Made by a program: the position numbers and the translations under genes. Shown here piece by piece: positions 4,682 through 14,407 of a stretch of DNA of 14,407 nucleotides. Under the pieces are notes generated by a model. That model did no database searches. It saw only the letters and a list, made by a program, of their open reading frames with translations, and was not told where the DNA came from. Every line of letters begins with the position of its first letter. Within the stretch, counting starts at the first letter, position 1. Source of the stretch: Hyphomonas sp. (GTDB lineage: Bacteria; Pseudomonadota; Alphaproteobacteria; Caulobacterales; Hyphomonadaceae); NCBI GenBank assembly GCA_029287305.1, contig JARFRJ010000219.1, forward strand, positions 1 through 14,407, in the 5' to 3' direction.

Positions 4682-4723
4682 TTGCCTTGGAGGCAAAATT
4701 GTGCAATGCAGCATTATGCTGCA
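4682..4723. promoter_or_regulatory. Two adjacent palindromes upstream of the phasin gene, candidate operator
   Basis: Two perfect inverted repeats lie back to back. The first is TTGCCT-TGG-AGGCAA (4682-4696). The second is TGCAGCA-TTA-TGCTGCA (4707-4723), followed by an overlapping CTGCAG (4719-4724). They lie about 100-140 bp ahead of the phasin start and 130-170 bp ahead of the carboxypeptidase start. Phasin genes in alphaproteobacteria are usually repressed by PhaR, whose known sites are TGC-rich (CTGC-N3/4-GCAG in Rhodobacter). The second repeat is TGC-rich, but its half-sites are in the opposite order, so PhaR binding is only a guess. Confidence 0.4.
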
Positions 4724-4757
4724 GGCGCGAAATCTGCCGATTAGTGCCTCGCAGACA

Positions 4758-4787
4758 CTGACCCTGACTTTGACCCTCACCCTGATC
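4758..4787. repeat. Five imperfect 6-bp tandem repeats ahead of the phasin gene
   Basis: The units CTGACC, CTGACT, TTGACC, CTCACC and CTGATC follow each other without a gap. They run directly into a TGATC-N7-GATCA inverted repeat (4783-4799). All of this is upstream of the chosen phasin start and is probably untranslated leader or promoter. Confidence 0.6.
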
Positions 4788-4807
4788 GTAAAAAGATCAT
4801 ACTCTAT

Positions 4808-4811
4808 GGAG
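4808..4811 (+). promoter_or_regulatory. Ribosome binding site that sets the phasin start
   Basis: GGAG lies nine bases before the ATG at 4821. The in-frame ATG at 4806 overlaps this site and has no comparable signal of its own, so 4821 is preferred. Confidence 0.55.
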
Positions 4812-4820
4812 ACCTTCACC

Positions 4821-5210
4821 ATGACCCAGACCACAAGCACATCCAAAGCAAAAGCTTCAAGCACAAAGAAAGACGCCCCAAAAGGCTTTGAATCCCTCTT
4901 CATGCTTGGTGAAAATATGAACCCATTTGGCGAGGCGGGCTCCAAAGCCTTTGCCCAAAGCGCACAAGCCTCATCAGAAGTGCTCAACAGCCTGACCAAA
5001 ACATCTATGGACTATATGCAAGGTGCCTATGAGCAGAATATGCAATTTTCCAAAGACCTCAGCGGCGCTCAAGGCTTACAAGATTATGCCAGTTTGCAGG
5101 CCAGCTATGTCAAAAAAGCCAGCCAGGATTATTTTGGCTATGTCAAAGCCATGGGCGAAACCATGGTCACAAGCTTTAAGAAAACAACCGAAAGCTTCAA
5201 AGCCGCTTAG
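4821..5210 (+). CDS. Phasin (polyhydroxyalkanoate granule-associated protein)
   Basis: This 129-residue protein (134 if the ATG at 4806 is used) is rich in Ala, Ser, Lys and Gln and has no hydrophobic segment. The N-terminal 20 residues are a Thr/Ser/Lys-rich disordered tail. The rest is predicted helical with spaced aromatic residues. The pattern LQDYASLQASYVKKASQDYF at about 86-105 is characteristic of the Phasin_2 family. Phasins coat PHA storage granules in the cytoplasm and limit their size. No PHA synthase or depolymerase gene is in the window, so the role rests on the protein itself. It is a single-gene unit: divergent from the carboxypeptidase and convergent with the Lrp-type regulator. 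Regulation probably acts through the palindromes and repeats at 4682-4799. Confidence 0.85.
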   Translation: MTQTTSTSKAKASSTKKDAPKGFESLFMLGENMNPFGEAGSKAFAQSAQASSEVLNSLTKTSMDYMQGAYEQNMQFSKDLSGAQGLQDYASLQASYVKKASQDYFGYVKAMGETMVTSFKKTTESFKAA

Positions 5211-5288: not shown

Positions 5289-5786
5289 TCACACGATGCT
5301 CGGCGGTGCGGGTTTCAAAATATCCAGCGGAAGGTCTGTTGACCGCTTGGCCACCCGTATCACAATGCGTGATTGCACATCCGAGACCAGATCAGAGCCC
5401 AGAAGCTTGTCGCGCAGGAAATCATCATAGGCGTGCATGTCCGAGGTCACGACATGGATGACATAGTCCACCGCGCCGGTAACGGTCATGCATTCGGTCA
5501 CCTCTGACCAATTTTGAACCATCTCCTCAAAAGCCTTTAGATTGTTGCGGTTTGGCAGGGCCAGCTTCACACTGGCGAAGACTTCAAAGTCGAGGCCCAA
5601 TTGCTCGCGATTGAGCAGGCTGACGCGTTTTTCAACAATACCGCATTCTTCGAGGCGTTTAATACGACGCCAACACGGCGAGGAGGATAGTCCAACACGG
5701 GCAGCAATATCGGCCACAGATAGGCTGGCATTGGATTGTATCAATTTGAGGATTTCCATATCCACAAGATCAAACTGGTTGGGCAC
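5289..5786 (-). CDS. Lrp/AsnC-family transcriptional regulator
   Basis: This 165-residue protein is the usual length for the family. The start is GTG at 5786, with AGGTG a few bases upstream on the minus strand. Residues 6-53 form the winged helix-turn-helix: DLVDMEILKLIQSNA, then SVADIAARVGLSSSPCWRRI as the HTH at about 23-42. Residues about 66-145 form the RAM effector-binding domain, with the typical VTGAVDYVIHVV at 102-113 and a SRIVIR strand at 139-144. Such proteins bind amino acids and form octamers that activate or repress amino acid genes. The effector and targets cannot be told from the sequence. Its neighbours, a phasin (convergent) and lysS (same strand, 259-base gap), give no clear target. 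Confidence 0.93.
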   Translation of the reverse strand: MPNQFDLVDMEILKLIQSNASLSVADIAARVGLSSSPCWRRIKRLEECGIVEKRVSLLNREQLGLDFEVFASVKLALPNRNNLKAFEEMVQNWSEVTECMTVTGAVDYVIHVVTSDMHAYDDFLRDKLLGSDLVSDVQSRIVIRVAKRSTDLPLDILKPAPPSIV

Positions 5787-5913
5787 GACAACACCTATTT
5801 AAAGTATATTCTTAACTAACGCGGTGAAGTCTTTAACGGCAAGTCTTTTCTTGTCTCAGCACGCCAAGATAAGATCGACAAAGTCTCTCTCAGGATAAAT
5901 TTATATAATTAGA

Positions 5914-5942
5914 GCAGCCCCATAAGCGCCCGAAGGGGCTGC
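5914..5942 (-). terminator. Hairpin downstream of lysS
   Basis: GCAGCCCC (5914-5921) and GGGGCTGC (5935-5942) form an 8-bp GC-rich stem with a 13-nt loop. On the minus strand it lies about 100 bases past the lysS stop and is followed by an A/T-rich run (TCTAATTATATAAATTTATC), consistent with a leftward terminator. A competing smaller hairpin, GCCC-CTTC-GGGC on the minus strand, is also possible. Confidence 0.55.
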
Positions 5943-6045
5943 AATTTCTGCGTGTCTTACTCGGGCAGTCGGTCGCCTCTTCAATCGGGTGTCCGTACAA
6001 AATCTCCGAGCTGCATTTTTACCATTTATGCATAGGACGCACCAT

Positions 6046-7635
6046 TTAGGCCCTATTGAGCGCAGAACGGATTAAATCTGCCGTTTCCTTGACCCCGTAA
6101 AGCGCGATGAAGCCGCCAAAGCGTGGGCCTTGGGATTGTCCGAACAAAACCTCATATAAAGCGCGAAACCAGTCGCGCAAATTTTCAAACTCATGCGCTT
6201 TACCAAGGGTGAAGGTTAGGGTTTGCAACGCTTCCGGGCTGATCTCTCCTTGATAGGCCAGAAGATGGTCCGCCAGATCAGCCAAGGCGGCGCGCTCTTT
6301 TACTGTCGGTGCGCGATAGACTTTCCTCGGTTTGATGAAATCCTCATAATAAGCAATCGCATAGCCGGCAAGCCTGTCCAGAAGCGGATGCGTCTCAGGG
6401 CTCGCTTCAGGCGCATAGCGGCTGATAAAGCCCCAAAGTTGGGGCCGGGTTTCGGCATTTGCGGCGCTGACAAGATTAAGCAAAAGCGCAAAGCTGACCG
6501 GCACATCGGCTTGCGGCGGGGCGCCATTATGGATATGCCAGACCGGATTTTCCAACCGCTTGTCCGCACTTTGATCTGGAAATTGAGCCAAAAAGGCAAG
6601 ATATTCCTCCACCGCTTTCGGGATGACATCAAAATAAAGCTTTTTGGCGGTGCGCGGTTTTTGAAACTGAAACAGCGACAGGCTTTCCGGCGGCGCATAT
6701 TTGAGCCAGTCTTCAACCGCTATGCCATTACCCTTGGATTTTGATATCTTCTCGCCATTCTCATCCAGAAACAGTTCATAGACATATTGCTGGGGCGGTC
6801 TTTGACCCAATATGGAGCAGATTTTGGAATAGATCGGCGCATTGTCCTGATGATCCTTGCCGAACATTTCAAAATCAACACCCAGCGCCGCCCAGCGCAT
6901 GCCAAAATCTGGTTTCCATTGCAGTTTCATATTTCGGCCACTGACCGCTAGGCTCACCTGCGTGCCATCTTCATCCTCAAAGCTGATCGTGCCCGCCTCA
7001 CGATCTATCTCACGCATCGGCACATAGAGAACCCGCCCTGTTGCCGGTGAGATCGGCAGGAAGGGCGAATAGGTCGCGCGGCGCTCCGGCCCGAGGGTCG
7101 GCAGCATCACATCCATAATTTTCTGATAGTTCTCCAGCACTTTGTTCAGCATCGGATCATATGTGCCATTTTGATAGAGCTCTGTGGCAGAGAAAAACTC
7201 ATACTCAAAGCCAAATTGATCCAAAAAGGCCATAAGCCGGGCATTCATATGGTGACCATAGCTGGCATGTGTGCCGAACGGATCAGGCACTTGGGTCAGC
7301 GGCTTTTGTAAATAGGGTTCCAAGCTTTCCGGGTTCGGCACGGTCGGCGGCACTTTACGCATGCCATCCATATCATCCGAGACGCAGATGAGGCGGGTGG
7401 CAATCTCGCCATTGGTCAGCGCGATAAAGGCCTGACGCACCATGGTCGTGCGGACCACCTCGCCAAATGTGCCAATATGCGGCAGGCCAGAGGGGCCATA
7501 GCCGGTTTCAAAGACGACCGGGCCAGTGCCGCCGCGCCCGGCCTTGGCCATTTGGGTGCGACGTTTCAAAATGGCGCGCGCCTGTTCAAATGGCCAGGCT
7601 TTGGCAGATTGGGCCAACTCGCTTAAGCTAGACAT
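6046..7635 (-). CDS. lysS: Lysine--tRNA ligase, class I
   Basis: This 529-residue enzyme attaches lysine to tRNA-Lys in the cytoplasm. It belongs to class I (Rossmann fold; also called lysK), unrelated to the class II LysRS of E. coli. The HIGH-type signature appears as [13 protein letters not shown] (47-59) and the KMSKS-type signature as ISKSKGNG (297-304). The GKDH element is at 259-262 and an alpha-helical anticodon-binding region fills the C-terminal 200 residues. The ATG at 7635 has a GGAG Shine-Dalgarno about seven bases upstream. Class I LysRS is common in alphaproteobacteria, so this supports the taxonomic placement and is not in itself unusual. The gene is divergent from the OYE-type reductase, with 125 bp between the starts. 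Confidence 0.97.
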
Positions 7636-8951: not shown

Positions 8952-11282
8952 ATGACGAATCAGACCCTTTCGATAAGCCAGATGGCCGCCGCGCAGCGCG
9001 CGGCCCACAGCCCTGAGGCCGATTATTTTACCGGACTTAACCCCGAACAACGCCGTGCCGTCGAAACCTTGGACGGTCCTTTGCTTGTTCTGGCCGGGGC
9101 AGGAACAGGCAAAACCCGTGTCCTGACGACGCGGCTGGCGCATATTATCGCGACCGGCAAAGCTTGGCCCTCACAAACCCTGACGGTCACCTTTACCAAT
9201 AAAGCGGCCCGTGAAATGCGCGCCCGTGCCTTGGATTTAATGGGTGCGCCAGGTGAGCAATTGCGCTGGCTGGGCACATTTCACTCCATATCCAATCAGA
9301 TATTGCGCCAGCATGCAGAATTAATCGGCCTGAAGCCGAGCTTCACCATTCTGGACACAGAGGATCAAATCCGGCTGTGCAAACAGATTATTGAAAGCGA
9401 GGGGATAGACGCCAAACGCTGGCCGCCGCGTCTTCTGGCAAGCCTGATTGATGGCTGGAAAAATCGCGCCCTTGGGCCAGGTAAAGTCCCCTCCGAAGAC
9501 GCGCACCAATTTGCCGATGGCAAAGGCATTCGCTGTTATGAGATTTATCAAAACCGCCTGAAAATCCTCAATGCGTGTGATTTTGGCGACTTGCTGATGC
9601 ATAATATCACCCTGTTTCAGGAACATAGCACATTGCTGGCGCACTATCAGGCCAAGTTTAAATATATTCTGGTCGATGAGTATCAAGATACCAATGTCGC
9701 CCAATATCTCTGGTTGCGCCTGCTCGCGCAGGCCTCCGGCAATATTTGCTGTGTCGGGGATGATGATCAGTCCATCTATGGCTGGCGCGGCGCGGAAGTG
9801 GACAATATTCTGCGCTTTGATAAGGATTTTCCGGGCGCAGAAATTGTCCGCCTAGAGCGCAATTATCGCTCTACAGAGCCGATATTGGCCGCCGCCAGCG
9901 CTGTCATTGCGCATAATCAGGATCGATTGGGCAAGACCTTGCATGTCGGTGAGGCAAGCAAGCTGGACCCGGATGCAGAAAAGGTCAAAGTGCGCGGGCT
10001 TTGGGATGGGGAAGGCGAAGCGCGCCTGATCGGGGATGATATTGAAAGCTGGCGCGCCAAGGGCCGGCCCTATTCAGAATGCGCCATATTGGTGCGCGCC
10101 TCCTGGCAGATGCGCCTGTTTGAAGAACGCCTCATCCTGCTCGGCATTCCCTATCGCGTGATCGGGGGCCCGCGCTTTTTCGAACGTGCTGAGATACGTG
10201 ATGCGCTGGCTTATTTACGCCTCGTCCACCAAAGTGATGATGATCTGGCCTTTGAGCGGATTGTCAATCAGCCCAAGCGCGGTATTGGCCAGACCTCTGT
10301 GCAGAAACTCTATCGCTTTGCCCGCGATCAGGGCCGATCGCTCATGGCGAGCCTGCCGGATATGCTGCAGACCGATGAGATTAAAGGCGGCGCAAAACGG
10401 GCTCTGCGCCTCTTTGCTGGCCAAATTACAGGCTGGCAGGACCGCCTCAAGCAAGACGTCTCCCATATCGATCTGGCAGAGATGATCCTCGATGAGAGCG
10501 GCTATACCGATATGCTGCAGCGCGATCGCAGCCCACAAGCCCATACGCGGCTAGATAATCTCAAAGAACTGATCCGGGCAATGGGGGAATTTGGCTCCCT
10601 GCCAGCCTTTCTGGAACATGTGCAATTGGTCATGGATGCAACAAGTGGCGAGCAAGGTGAGGATCAGGTGCAAATCCTGACCCTGCATGGTGCCAAAGGG
10701 CTGGAATGGCCGCTTGTCTTCCTGCCCGGCTGGGAGGAGGAGGTCTTTCCCTCGCGCCGCAGCCTTGATGAGAGTGGCCTGAAGGGGCTGGAAGAAGAAA
10801 GACGGCTGGCCTATGTCGGCATTACGCGCGCGCGCGAGGCCTGCTATATCTCTTTTGTCGCCAATCGGCAGATTTATGGACGCTGGCAATCGGTCATGCC
10901 GAGCCGCTTTGTCGATGAATTGCCGCCCGAACATGTCGAGGCGATCTCAGAAACCGGCTATGCCAGCCAACCGGGCGGGTCAGGCGGATTTACAGGTAAT
11001 CTGGAAGCCCTCGGCGCCCGCTCTACCTATGACAGCCCGGGATGGAAACGTTTGCAGACCCATGCACGCTCTGAAAATATCAAATCCACATTCGGGGTCA
11101 AAGAGACCGCCGAGCTCTTTACCAGCAGCGCAAGTGCGAGCGGATTTACCCTTGGTGAACGCGTCTTTCATGACAAATTTGGCTATGGACGGGTGATAGG
11201 CGCAGAAGGGGTCAAACTGACGGTCGACTTTGAAAAAAGCTCTACCAAAAAAGTCATTGCAACCTTTTTAAAACAGGCCTGA
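8952..11282 (+). CDS. uvrD: UvrD/PcrA-type superfamily 1 DNA helicase
   Basis: This 776-residue 3'-5' DNA helicase translocates on single-stranded DNA for excision and mismatch repair. The SF1A motifs in order are: Walker A GAGTGKT (49-55), motif Ia TFTNKAAREM (80-89), Walker B VDEYQDTN (241-248), motif III GDDDQSIYGWRGA (269-281), motif IV NYRST (304-308), motif V TLHGAKGLEW (577-586) and motif VI RRLAYVGITRA (617-627). The last 45 residues (LGERVFHDKFGYGRVIGAEG and on) form the Tudor-like domain that contacts RNA polymerase in PcrA/UvrD, so the protein is complete. The ATG at 8952 has AGGA only one base upstream. Met11 is an alternative start but has no better site. Confidence 0.95.
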   Translation: MTNQTLSISQMAAAQRAAHSPEADYFTGLNPEQRRAVETLDGPLLVLAGAGTGKTRVLTTRLAHIIATGKAWPSQTLTVTFTNKAAREMRARALDLMGAPGEQLRWLGTFHSISNQILRQHAELIGLKPSFTILDTEDQIRLCKQIIESEGIDAKRWPPRLLASLIDGWKNRALGPGKVPSEDAHQFADGKGIRCYEIYQNRLKILNACDFGDLLMHNITLFQEHSTLLAHYQAKFKYILVDEYQDTNVAQYLWLRLLAQASGNICCVGDDDQSIYGWRGAEVDNILRFDKDFPGAEIVRLERNYRSTEPILAAASAVIAHNQDRLGKTLHVGEASKLDPDAEKVKVRGLWDGEGEARLIGDDIESWRAKGRPYSECAILVRASWQMRLFEERLILLGIPYRVIGGPRFFERAEIRDALAYLRLVHQSDDDLAFERIVNQPKRGIGQTSVQKLYRFARDQGRSLMASLPDMLQTDEIKGGAKRALRLFAGQITGWQDRLKQDVSHIDLAEMILDESGYTDMLQRDRSPQAHTRLDNLKELIRAMGEFGSLPAFLEHVQLVMDATSGEQGEDQVQILTLHGAKGLEWPLVFLPGWEEEVFPSRRSLDESGLKGLEEERRLAYVGITRAREACYISFVANRQIYGRWQSVMPSRFVDELPPEHVEAISETGYASQPGGSGGFTGNLEALGARSTYDSPGWKRLQTHARSENIKSTFGVKETAELFTSSASASGFTLGERVFHDKFGYGRVIGAEGVKLTVDFEKSSTKKVIATFLKQA

Positions 11283-11341
11283 TCGGTAAGAATGGGGACG
11301 GCTATGGATTATAAGTGTCTTGCCCCTGATAAAAATAAAAC

Positions 11342-11347
11342 GGGGAG
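11342..11347 (+). promoter_or_regulatory. Strong Shine-Dalgarno of the transporter-pxp operon
   Basis: GGGGAG lies six bases before the ATG at 11354. It is the only strong independent ribosome binding site ahead of the four overlapping genes, apart from GGGGG before pxpB. Confidence 0.6.
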
Positions 11348-11353
11348 ATAGAG

Positions 11354-12568
11354 ATGCGACCTCCCATGGGCCCGGGTATTCTGATTGCCGCAGCTTTTGT
11401 CGGCCCTGGAACGGTAACCACCTGTATTCTGGCGGGCGCAAATTATGGCTTCGCCCTGATCTGGGTTCTGATATTTGCCATTTTTGCGACGATTATCCTG
11501 CAAGGCATGGCGGTGCGTCTTGGCCTTGCCGGACATATGGGGCTTGGCACTGCCCTCCTCAAAAGCACACAAAACCCTTCCCTGAAATGGATCAGCGCCG
11601 GACTTATTCTGGGCAGTCTAGTGATTGGCAATGCAGCTTATGAGGCTGGAAATATCACGGGCGGCGCTATGGGGCTTGATGCGCTTTTCACACATCCGAA
11701 TACATATGTGATCCGCTATCTCTATCCCAGCCTGATCGGCCTGATCGCCGGACTGGTCCTGTTTCATGGTCGCTATAAAATCCTGCAATCGATTTTGGTC
11801 TCCCTAGCCCTGATTATGAGCGCCTGCTTTCTGATCAGCCTTGTTTTGGCCCGTCCGGATTTCAGCCAAATGATCACAGGGCTGAAACCAAGCCTTCCAG
11901 AGGGCGCTTTGCTGCCTATTATTGCTCTGATTGGCACCACAATCGTGCCGTATAATCTTTTCCTGCACAGCCGGGCTGTCCAAGAGCATTGGAAGCGGGG
12001 CCGCGCGGATATCCCACACGCCTTGCGTGACAGCGCCGTTTCGATAAGCCTTGGCGGTCTTGTCTCTATTCTCATCCTCGCCACTGCCGCAACGACGCTA
12101 TTTGGCAGTGCGATCGAGGTCAGTAATGGCCGGGATATGGCTTTAGCGATTGAACCGGCCGCCGGCCCATTGGCGCGCTATTTCATCGGCCTTGGACTAT
12201 TTGCCGCCGGGCTCACCTCAGCGATCACAGCACCGATGGCAACGGCCTATGTTGTGACAGAAATTTTTCCCCAATGGGGCCAAAAGCGACATGCCTTTCG
12301 CAGCATCGCTTTAAGTATTCTGGCGGTCGGCTTGGCAATCTCTCTTATCGGCATTGCCCCAATCCAAATCATCTTATTTGCACAAATGGTCAATGGTCTG
12401 CTCTTGCCGATTATCGCCCTATTTTTGCTGATCATGATGAACCGGACGGCGCTTCTTGGCCGCGCCGTCAATACGCTCAGCGCGAATATTCTTGGGAGCC
12501 TCGCTGTCGGGGTGACATTCTTGCTGGGCCTGCGTCTGATTTTGCGGACTTTCGGTCTCTGGCCATGA
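11354..12568 (+). CDS. NRAMP-fold transporter lacking the metal-binding motifs, 5-oxoprolinase-linked
   Basis: This 404-residue inner-membrane protein has about 11 hydrophobic segments and starts almost directly at TM1. The NRAMP/SLC11 pattern is clear: GPGILIAAAFVGPGTVTT in TM1 (6-23), an aromatic/amide TM3 region (NAAYEAGNITGGAMG, 93-107) and VPYNLFLHSRAV in TM6 (198-209), close to the NRAMP consensus MPHNLYLHS. The ligands differ. The usual TM1 DPGN reads G17-P18-G19-T20 and the TM6 MPH reads V198-P199-Y200. True Mn/Fe transporters use that Asp, Asn and Met to hold the ion, so ordinary metal transport is unlikely. The gene heads an operon and its stop overlaps pxpA by four bases (ATGA). 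Bacillus subtilis has an NRAMP-like ycsG next to ycsF (pxpA), which suggests a conserved partnership. Uptake of 5-oxoproline or a related compound is my inference. Confidence 0.88.
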   Translation: MRPPMGPGILIAAAFVGPGTVTTCILAGANYGFALIWVLIFAIFATIILQGMAVRLGLAGHMGLGTALLKSTQNPSLKWISAGLILGSLVIGNAAYEAGNITGGAMGLDALFTHPNTYVIRYLYPSLIGLIAGLVLFHGRYKILQSILVSLALIMSACFLISLVLARPDFSQMITGLKPSLPEGALLPIIALIGTTIVPYNLFLHSRAVQEHWKRGRADIPHALRDSAVSISLGGLVSILILATAATTLFGSAIEVSNGRDMALAIEPAAGPLARYFIGLGLFAAGLTSAITAPMATAYVVTEIFPQWGQKRHAFRSIALSILAVGLAISLIGIAPIQIILFAQMVNGLLLPIIALFLLIMMNRTALLGRAVNTLSANILGSLAVGVTFLLGLRLILRTFGLWP

Positions 12569-13338
12569 GACAAGAAGTGGATTTAAATGCTGATTTGGGC
12601 GAGCTAGCAGGGCCCGCCGGGCGCGCGTCAGACCGGGCAATCCTTAAATATGTCACAAGCTGCGCGATTGCCTGCGGCGGCCATGCCGGGGATGCTGACA
12701 GCATGTACGCCACACTCAAAGCCGCGCGGGATGAAGGCGTTCGCATCGGCGCCCATCCTTCTTATCCGGATAAGGCTGGCTTTGGGCGCCGTCCCCTCAC
12801 CCTCTCGCCCGATACACTTCTGGAAAGCCTTAAAGATCAATTGATGACTTTCAAACACATCGCTGAGACGCTTGGGGCAAAAGTCTTCCATGTCAAACCG
12901 CATGGAGCCCTCTATCATCAGGCAGCCCGATCAGAACAGATCGCGGAGTGCCTGTTAGAGGCGGCGCGTCATGTCTATGGCAAGAGGATAGCGCTGATTG
13001 GCCTCGCGGATACGTGCCTAGAAAATTTGACCTTAAAGGCCGGGCTTTCCTTCTATTGCGAGGGCTTTATTGACCGCGCCTATCAAAGCGATGGCCGCCT
13101 CGTCGCGCGCGATCAACCCGGTGCCGAGCTTAGTTTGAGAGCCGCGCAAATAGCCCAAGCCTTGCAGATTGTACAGGACCATCAGGTGACCACGCTTGAC
13201 GGCAAGATCATCCCTATAAGGATTGATACGCTCTGTCTGCATGGCGATCATGCCGGCGCAGCCGAGCTGGTAAGAGAGATAGGCAATGCCTTCCGCGCAC
13301 AGGAGATCACGCTTCGCCCGCTTGGGGGCAATAGGTGA
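12565..13338 (+). CDS. pxpA: 5-oxoprolinase subunit A (LamB/YcsF family)
   Basis: This 257-residue cytoplasmic subunit of PxpABC hydrolyses 5-oxo-L-proline to glutamate at the cost of ATP. The start is the ATG at 12565, overlapping the transporter's stop as ATGA. It gives the canonical N-terminus VDLNADLGE (5-13). The frame is open back to 12274, but that part lies inside the transporter gene and has no family similarity. Conserved blocks are ACGGHAGD (36-43, usually ACGFHAGD), GAHPSYPD (62-69), HVKPHGALYHQ (109-119), the EGFIDRAYQSDG region (166-177) and CLHGD (224-228). The His and Asp residues of these blocks line the active site in the family. Length matches the usual 245-255 residues. 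The absence of a separate Shine-Dalgarno suggests translation coupled to the transporter. Confidence 0.95.
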   Translation: MRQEVDLNADLGELAGPAGRASDRAILKYVTSCAIACGGHAGDADSMYATLKAARDEGVRIGAHPSYPDKAGFGRRPLTLSPDTLLESLKDQLMTFKHIAETLGAKVFHVKPHGALYHQAARSEQIAECLLEAARHVYGKRIALIGLADTCLENLTLKAGLSFYCEGFIDRAYQSDGRLVARDQPGAELSLRAAQIAQALQIVQDHQVTTLDGKIIPIRIDTLCLHGDHAGAAELVREIGNAFRAQEITLRPLGGNR

Positions 13339-14018
13339 AGATAACCGGCCTTCAATTTACAGGCGATGATGTGCTGACCCTCGCCATGCCAGACAGACAG
13401 GCCCGCTATAGAGCCCTGAACACGCTTTTAAGAAGCGGCACCTGGCGCGAGGTGGTTGCCGGAAAGACCGTCTTGAGCGTTCAATTTGATCCCCTGCGCT
13501 TTGCCTCTCTTGAAGCTGTCAAAACATGTCTCTGGCAAGAGTTGAATACCCCCTATGAGCTTGATCAGAGCTCGGCAAATGAGATTGAAATTCCAATCTG
13601 TTGTGACCTAGACCTTGCCCCCGACCTTGCGTTCATCTCGGACAAGCTGGGCCTAAGCCCGCACGCGGTGATTGAAAAACATATCGCCACATCCTATCAG
13701 GTGGACCTGATCGGTTTTACGCCCGGCTTTGCCTATTTGGAAGGTGCTGGCTGGGCCTCGGACGTGCCGCGTCTGACACGGCCAAGGCAAAGCGTTCCAG
13801 CCGGTTCGGTCGGGCTCGCTGCGGGGCAATGCGGGCTCTATGCCTTAGAAGGTCCGGGCGGGTGGCCTTTAATTGGCCGCACACCGCGTCGCCTATTTAA
13901 TCCGCAAGATCAAAACCCTTTTCAGCTTCACCTCGGCCAAAGCGTGCGCTTTCGCCTCATAACACGCGATGACTATCGTATCGCTAAGGCCAATACCAAG
14001 GCTAAGGCCAAACCGTGA
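13335..14018 (+). CDS. pxpB: 5-oxoprolinase subunit B (KipI/allophanate hydrolase subunit 1 family)
   Basis: This 227-residue protein forms the carboxyltransferase-like part of 5-oxoprolinase together with PxpC. The start is GTG at 13335, overlapping the pxpA stop as GTGA, with GGGGG (13324-13328) six bases upstream. Family motifs: GFTPGFAYLEGAGW (127-140), PRLTRPRQSVPAGSVGLA (145-162), GPGGWPLIGRTP (173-184). The family name KipI comes from the B. subtilis kinase inhibitor annotation, but next to pxpA and pxpC the 5-oxoprolinase role is much more likely. The extreme C-terminus (ANTKAKAKP) is encoded by a short direct repeat and looks like a lineage-specific tail. Confidence 0.94.
   Translation: MKITGLQFTGDDVLTLAMPDRQARYRALNTLLRSGTWREVVAGKTVLSVQFDPLRFASLEAVKTCLWQELNTPYELDQSSANEIEIPICCDLDLAPDLAFISDKLGLSPHAVIEKHIATSYQVDLIGFTPGFAYLEGAGWASDVPRLTRPRQSVPAGSVGLAAGQCGLYALEGPGGWPLIGRTPRRLFNPQDQNPFQLHLGQSVRFRLITRDDYRIAKANTKAKAKP
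13983..14011 (+). repeat. 11-bp direct repeat encoding the PxpB tail
   Basis: GCTAAGGCCAA occurs at 13983-13993 and 14001-14011, inside the last codons of pxpB. It gives the Ala/Lys-rich end and may reflect a small local duplication. Confidence 0.6.
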
Positions 14019-14407
14019 GACTCAAACTTATCAAAGCCGGCTTACAGACAAGCCTGCAAGGCGGGCCGCGATCTGGCTATCGTCATATCGGTGTGCCCGC
14101 AAGCGGGGCGGCGGATATGGTGTCTCTGGCTTTGGCCAATCGGCTGGTCGGCAATCGGCTATATGCCCCCGCGCTTGAGATCACATTAAGCGGGCTTGTG
14201 GCAGAATTTGAAACGCCCGGTCTGATTGCACTTACAGGCGGGCAGGCCGCGCTCACGCTCAATGCAAAGAGTATCCCGGCCCATCAAAGCCTTGCTGTGA
14301 AGGCTGGAGACCGTCTGGAGGTCGGACCGATCCGATCCGGGTGCCGCCTTTATCTGGCGCTGCAAGGAGAAATTGAAGCGACGCCCTGGCTTGGTTCCCC
14401 CTCGACC
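14015..14407 (+). CDS. pxpC: 5-oxoprolinase subunit C (KipA/biotin-dependent carboxyltransferase family), cut by window end
   Basis: The frame opens at GTG 14015, overlapping the pxpB stop as GTGA, and stays open for 131 codons to the window edge. Family members are about 300-330 residues, so more than half is missing. The N-terminal domain is recognisable: LKLIKAGLQTSLQG, SGYRHIGVPASGAADMVSLALANRLVG (about 21-47), ALEITLSG (54-61), ALTGGQAALTLN (about 74-85) and YLALQGEIEATPWLGSPST (113-131), which ends in the family's GS-ST turn. The subunit pairs with PxpB to handle ATP-driven ring opening of 5-oxoproline. The first conserved block normally reads QDLGRPGYR and here reads QGGPRSGYR, a small departure whose effect is unknown. 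Confidence 0.93.
   Translation, partial: MRLKLIKAGLQTSLQGGPRSGYRHIGVPASGAADMVSLALANRLVGNRLYAPALEITLSGLVAEFETPGLIALTGGQAALTLNAKSIPAHQSLAVKAGDRLEVGPIRSGCRLYLALQGEIEATPWLGSPST

Follow-up and report, generated by a model that had tools for sequence, protein, structure and literature searches.

Nramp-fold transporters without metal ligands often adjoin 5-oxoprolinase genes or an unrelated enzyme gene and are putative 5-oxoproline importers

Genes for a branch of Nramp-fold proteins that lacks the metal-ligand residues (branch I) often adjoin pxpABC, encoding 5-oxoprolinase, or, in some genomes without pxpA, the gene for an unrelated enzyme of the OPLAH/HyuAB type. Here, starting from a branch I gene in a 14,407-nucleotide stretch of Hyphomonas sp. 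DNA (contig JARFRJ010000219.1; hereafter, the window), we describe this association and propose that the window protein, acting as a secondary transporter, probably imports 5-oxo-L-proline (pyroglutamate) or a very similar cyclic amide acid.

The transporter gene (11354..12568, plus strand) encodes 404 amino acids that match PF01566 at 267 bits and, in an AlphaFold2 model with a pLDDT of 93.5, adopt the LeuT-type fold, as is characteristic of the SLC11/Nramp family. The model breaks TM1 at residues 16–17 and TM6 at residues 197–198. Here the DPGN and MPH motifs that define metal-transporting SLC11/Nramp proteins are replaced by GPGT in TM1 (residues 17–20; 11402..11413, plus strand) and VPY in TM6 (residues 198–200; 11945..11953, plus strand), replacements that a sequence-only reading of the window had noted and that the translated frame and an alignment with 8e5s, an Nramp chain from D. 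radiodurans, confirm: Gly17 falls over the Asp, Thr20 over the Asn, Val198 over the Met and Tyr200 over the His. Both motifs are kept in the best 120 of 7963 matches (the query counted among the 120), so the pair is not a product of chance. The window protein scores 155 bits with the NCBIfam MntH model, for which the cut-off is 430, and passes the Nramp_1 model (78 versus 50 bits), which may explain the name ‘Nramp family divalent metal transporter’ that branch I genes carry. It is the sole Nramp match in the Hyphomonas assembly.

On the same strand follow pxpA (12565..13338; PF03746, 266.5 bits; above the cut-off of NCBIfam NF003814), pxpB (13335..14018; PF02682, 164 bits; below its NCBIfam cut-off, at 123 versus 145 bits) and the first 131 codons of pxpC (14015..14407; PF02626, 122 bits), which is truncated by the end of the contig at base 14407. 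The four-base overlaps reported previously are present at all three junctions, as ATGA between the transporter gene and pxpA (12565–12568) and as GTGA between pxpA and pxpB (13335–13338) and between pxpB and pxpC (14015–14018). Elsewhere in the window, the translation of an open reading frame at 4701–5210 opens with an alternating Thr/Leu run, a simple repeat.

Ligand states were read across relatives in several samples. In a draw of 299 Pseudomonadota genomes, 111 Nramp loci were read, the window among them, comprising every listed row that scores under 310 bits plus 44 that score higher; the listing reached down to about 212 bits, and ten weaker matches were inspected separately. Eleven of the 111 belong to the GPGT/VPY group, that is, branch I, and the remainder have DPGN/MPH, DPSG/SPY, DAGG/APW, DAGS/MPW and rarer states. 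A second, named sample of 120 loci was drawn by TM6 pattern among the matches listed, with TM1 and TM3 left unselected, and was joined by three haloarchaeal loci for the count of ligand states. TM1 is fully readable in 114 of these 123 loci (the named ones among the matches listed) and reads GPGT in 112 and GPGS in two. The absence of the metal ligands described in the sequence-only reading extends beyond the window: Asp, Asn and Met are absent from the 114 readable TM1 segments, the 123 TM6 segments (for which TM6 was selected) and 69 aligned branch I rows. Across those 69 rows, Gly92, Gly99, Gly103, Thr195, Val198, Tyr200 and Asn201 are invariant, and Tyr96 is kept in 66, Asn100 in 65 and Gly107 in 67; some of the rows had been chosen for Val198 and Tyr200, but none for TM3 or Thr195. 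The TM3 residues G92-Y96-G99-N100-G103-G107 (11627..11674, plus strand) are those named for an orphan outgroup of Slc11, to which we return below. Branch I has Tyr200 and Asn100 where DPGN-type proteins have, respectively, a TM6 His and a TM3 Glu with a role in proton coupling.

Several other states were observed along the way. The haloarchaeal branch I proteins (L112–L114) have VGY in place of VPY in TM6, DIGD/TPYE occurs in Actinomycetes (part of L309–L323) and GPGS/SIVG-like states occur chiefly in Bacilli (part of L271–L279, and L301). Three Bacteroidia Nramp frames are each broken by one TGA (G832:C2, G741:C5 and G776:C3), through either decay or recoding.

Among the 11 Pseudomonadota branch I genes, three touch pxpA and three touch an OPLAH-type gene, a fusion of Hydantoinase A and B. 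At the other 100 Nramp loci, PxpA was found in none of the stretches and a Hydantoinase gene touched none, with flanks of only about 1.4 kb in 30 of them; the difference in adjacency, 6/11 versus 0/100, is significant (P = 2e-7). The other five branch I genes stand alone, with pxpA elsewhere in each genome, so that pxpA is present in eight of the 11 genomes and the fusion in the remaining three; across the draw, pxpA occurs in 130 of 299. In the named sample (counts among the matches listed), 53 of 120 transporter genes are adjacent to pxpA and eight to OPLAH/HyuAB genes (L168 being divergent and L222 lying 517 bases off), 12 have no partner despite both flanks being in view and 47 are too close to an edge. 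The gap between transporter and pxpA has a median of 4 bases and is at most 50 in 47 of the 53. Contig coordinates place pxpA beside nine of the edge loci (L129, L135, L157, L158, L181, L193, L199, L210 and L224), one of which, L210, was also seen directly, as L333; a tenth, L154, is consistent with a HyuA–HyuB neighbour. Fifty of the 59 named-sample genomes with no partner in view were searched throughout. PxpA is found in 41 of the 50 (among the matches listed), and a Hydantoinase_B match occurs in all nine pxpA-less genomes versus 13 of the 41 with pxpA (P = 2e-4; the matches in G309 and G314 are partial). The nine include five Planctomycetota, a Rhodothermales, Marinicaulis and Amphiplicatus. 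This co-occurrence is weaker evidence than adjacency, given the breadth of the Hydantoinase_B family and the draft metagenome origin of several of the assemblies.

The association recurs in Bacteroidia, sampled as 129 genomes with no TM6 selection and with branch I level set at at least 430 bits to profile A1 (two unread rows, at 323 and 292 bits, were counted as other). Matches at this level occur in five of the 129 genomes, all five with pxpA, which is present in only 11 of the 129; three of the five adjoin pxpA at 15–22 bases, and none of the remaining listed Nramp rows lies beside a listed pxpA. With the centre genome excluded, pxpA accompanies branch I in 4/4 genomes versus 6/124 (P = 2e-5). 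The enrichment beside pxp genes, which the sequence-only reading had put forward as a test of its proposal, is supported. Among 118 Actinomycetes genomes, only the centre genome has a branch I match that exceeds 400 bits, and the gene adjoins pxpA. In 121 Bacilli genomes there are five branch I genes (above 500 bits), of which only that in G366 is part of a pxp cluster; for those in G331, G466, G437 and G357, about 5 kb on each side contains neither a pxp nor an OPLAH gene, and in G331, the one of these four genomes searched for it, pxpA is elsewhere. The stand-alone genes (5/11 in Pseudomonadota and 4/5 in Bacilli) rule out a strict operon lock, and the earlier description of the transporter as locked into a 5-oxoprolinase operon was too strong.

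In the three Pseudomonadota genomes with the alternative partner (G254, G240 and G087), the transporter gene overlaps that of the fusion, of about 1,200 amino acids, by four bases, and the PxpA search of the draw reported no match in any of them. The two fusions scanned with Pfam contain Hydant_A_N, Hydantoinase_A and Hydantoinase_B; the third (L080) was identified through the L073 fusion (2537 of 2684 bits). On haloarchaeal plasmids, two branch I copies precede HyuA, HyuB and a gene resembling Asp/Glu/hydantoin racemases (Pfam on L112), and a third, L113, precedes HyuA in a record that ends within or after that gene. In a rapidly built tree with 64 rows, the partner label changes five times, at least two of the changes being forced by starred branches. 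A carrier that accompanies either of two unrelated enzymes is best explained by the substrate that these enzymes share. Gene context thus supports 5-oxoproline, the cargo suggested earlier, and the exchange of PxpABC for an enzyme unrelated to it strengthens the case.

The same partners raise the question of a broader or different cyclic amide cargo—hydantoins, other lactams or imides, with 5-oxoproline as one case—which we regard as unlikely, although it is the strongest of the alternatives. The best solved relative of the OPLAH-type fusion is named as an N-methylhydantoinase (465 bits), matches of these partners to caprolactamase models are below the cut-off, and such partners might act as hydantoinases rather than 5-oxoprolinases; together with the racemase-like gene of the two haloarchaeal operons, this means that the cargo could span wider cyclic imides or lactams. 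Mhp1, a hydantoin carrier, is also among the fold matches of the window model, but the match is weak, as is usual among LeuT folds. Against a broader cargo, the published substrate with a PxpABC partner is 5-oxoproline, according to the accessible portion of that report (PMC13274462). A literature search that reached few subscription papers returned none dealing with Nramp and hydantoinase genes together. Separately, one Pseudomonadota contig (G117:C11) has an Nramp gene (L094; 5932–7149) with EVGS in TM1, Glu replacing Asp, about 3 kb from HyuA/HyuB genes (10273–13059); two copies of pxpA lie on the same contig, no more than about 25 kb away, and the region is possibly another cyclic-amide cluster.

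Returning to import of 5-oxoproline, the sequence, the predicted fold, the clade, the gene neighbourhood and the swap of partner are what we observe, and from these we infer the cargo and the roles of pocket residues. The cargo would bind where TM1 and TM6 are unwound at mid-helix, as in other LeuT-fold carriers. GxG segments of amino acid carriers hold a carboxylate by backbone amides, and the glycine segment of GPGT may hold that of the cargo in the same way, with the lactam faced by Tyr96 and Asn100 of TM3, Tyr200 and Asn201 of TM6 and Gln344 and Asn347 of TM10. Alternating access would then hand the cargo to PxpABC, encoded by the overlapping genes, where it would be opened to glutamate. 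The requirement for pxpT in growth of C. glutamicum on 5-oxoproline, as described in the text available for PMC13274462, is a precedent, in a protein of branch II type. Counting against this reading, many branch I genes stand alone, and in two Gram-positive genomes that contain both branches (G331 and G304) it is the branch II gene, not that of branch I, that lies beside pxpA.

Branch II has GPGF or GPAF in TM1 and GGY in TM6, lacks the Asp and Met ligands in all 25 rows examined and is 18–23% identical to the window protein. It occurs in 21 of 246 Actinomycetes genomes (E 1e-20), beside pxpA in 18 of the 21. In a Bacillus-type locus (L373), Pfam identifies the order IclR regulator, pxpB, pxpC, pxpA, branch II and D-glutamate cyclase, and the order is similar in L372 and L374; the cyclase-type gene follows branch II in these three loci and precedes it in L238, PF07286 having been tested in L373 only, and such a neighbour fits a 5-oxoproline pathway. 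The integrative model 9a52 is titled YCSG-FABL, and its chain A, which has the Nramp fold, is on these grounds YcsG; it is 68% identical to the branch II protein P0124 and 21% to the window model, which places YcsG in branch II and the window protein outside it. The idea that branch I merely varies on B. subtilis YcsG is thereby excluded, and the ycsF–ycsG pair is not the parallel for the window operon that the sequence-only reading took it to be. From published identities, PxpT (50% to YcsG) and C. difficile PxpG (46% to PxpT) would also belong to branch II (PMC13274462, as far as its accessible text goes). Both branches occur together in three Gram-positive genomes: Shouchella (G331; L326 and L325), Bhargavaea (G304; L130 and L344) and Arthrobacter (G337; L333 and L345). 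The gene adjoining pxpA is that of branch II in the first two and of branch I in Arthrobacter. At L328, a branch II gene adjoining pxpABC (5493–6676) is split into two frames.

It is improbable that the window protein imports a divalent metal, namely Mn, to feed the oxoprolinase through a non-canonical site. The Pfam Nramp and NCBIfam Nramp_1 models do match it, and YcsG and MumT, also encoded in such operons, are reported to raise cell Mn: overexpression of YcsG raised it (PMC10448178) and loss of A. baumannii MumT, not assigned to a branch here, lowered it (PMC5050338), in the accessible parts of both reports. Yet the Asp, Asn and Met ligands are absent from every branch I segment read, pxpA lies beside none of the 100 other Nramp genes, YcsG belongs to another branch, and C. 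glutamicum cannot grow on 5-oxoproline without pxpT, a defect complemented in trans (PMC13274462, accessible text). No instance of Mn transport by the same GPGT/VPY site was found in the accessible literature, the Mn reports being those on YcsG and MumT. Within branch II these reports conflict, YcsG being described as a Mn importer and pxpT as serving 5-oxoproline growth; the accessible text of the YcsG and pxpT reports (PMC10448178, PMC13274462) does not discuss ligand residues, and our data bear on the conflict in that this branch, too, is without the canonical ligands. An exporter or regulator of 5-oxoproline pools is very improbable: 5-oxoproline does arise spontaneously in cells, but pxpT acts as an uptake gene in C. 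glutamicum (both from the accessible text of PMC13274462) and export would squander the substrate of the neighbouring enzyme.

Trees were built with FastTree (206 rows) and IQ-TREE (102 rows, two long rows excluded). Both recover three clades (supports from IQ-TREE): branch I, with the window protein inside (99/99), branch II (100/100) and the Asp type, one Glu row counted in (97/92). Scored as acid versus Gly, the TM1 position changes once on the tree, with three distant rows (L242–L244) scored as non-acid and their TM1 letters read by eye; these three aside, rows that belong neither to branch I nor to the Asp type have Gly at this place. A single gain of Asp is therefore simplest if the root lies among them, the root not having been inferred by the method and the ligand columns having been included in the alignment. 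The metal site was thus probably never lost in branch I, as judged from this single change, and the ‘changed substrate’ of the sequence-only reading probably has the direction wrong. We do not claim separate recruitment of branches I and II, since a topology test does not reject a larger clade uniting them (p-AU 0.248). We suggest, tentatively and with more doubt than confidence, that the metal site of all Nramp proteins, human DMT1 and NRAMP1 included, arose a single time, when Asp replaced Gly in the unwound part of TM1 in an ancestor whose cargo was a small cyclic amino acid such as 5-oxoproline; branches I and II would be living relics of that ancestor.

Canonical Nramp/MntH (SLC11) proteins differ from branch I in DPGN, MPH and the TM3 Glu (Asn in branch I) and form a separate clade. 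NRMT Mg transporters keep the TM1 Asp, in DxxG (PMC8806188, accessible text), where the window protein has Gly17. YcsG, PxpT and C. difficile PxpG resemble branch I in the Nramp fold, the adjoining pxp genes and the lack of Asp and Met ligands, but differ in TM1 (GPGF or GPAF) and TM6 (GGY). The closest likeness is to the Slc11 outgroup called orphan, which, in the accessible text of PMC10606218, has G-Y-G-N-G-G in TM3, V-Y in TM6 and Thr for the Ala ligand and, with PMC9606685, no metal site; neither text, in the parts accessible, gives a cargo or gene context. Branch I has the residues named for this outgroup (TM3 G-Y-G-N-G-G and TM6 T..V.Y) and forms one clade apart from Slc11, and we take the two as the same group, matched by published description rather than by sequences. 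The outgroup, which may link carriers of metals to those of other cargo according to the accessible text of PMC4072509, here receives a cargo prediction, and because this prediction rests on two unrelated enzymes, the origin of Nramp metal transport becomes directly testable.
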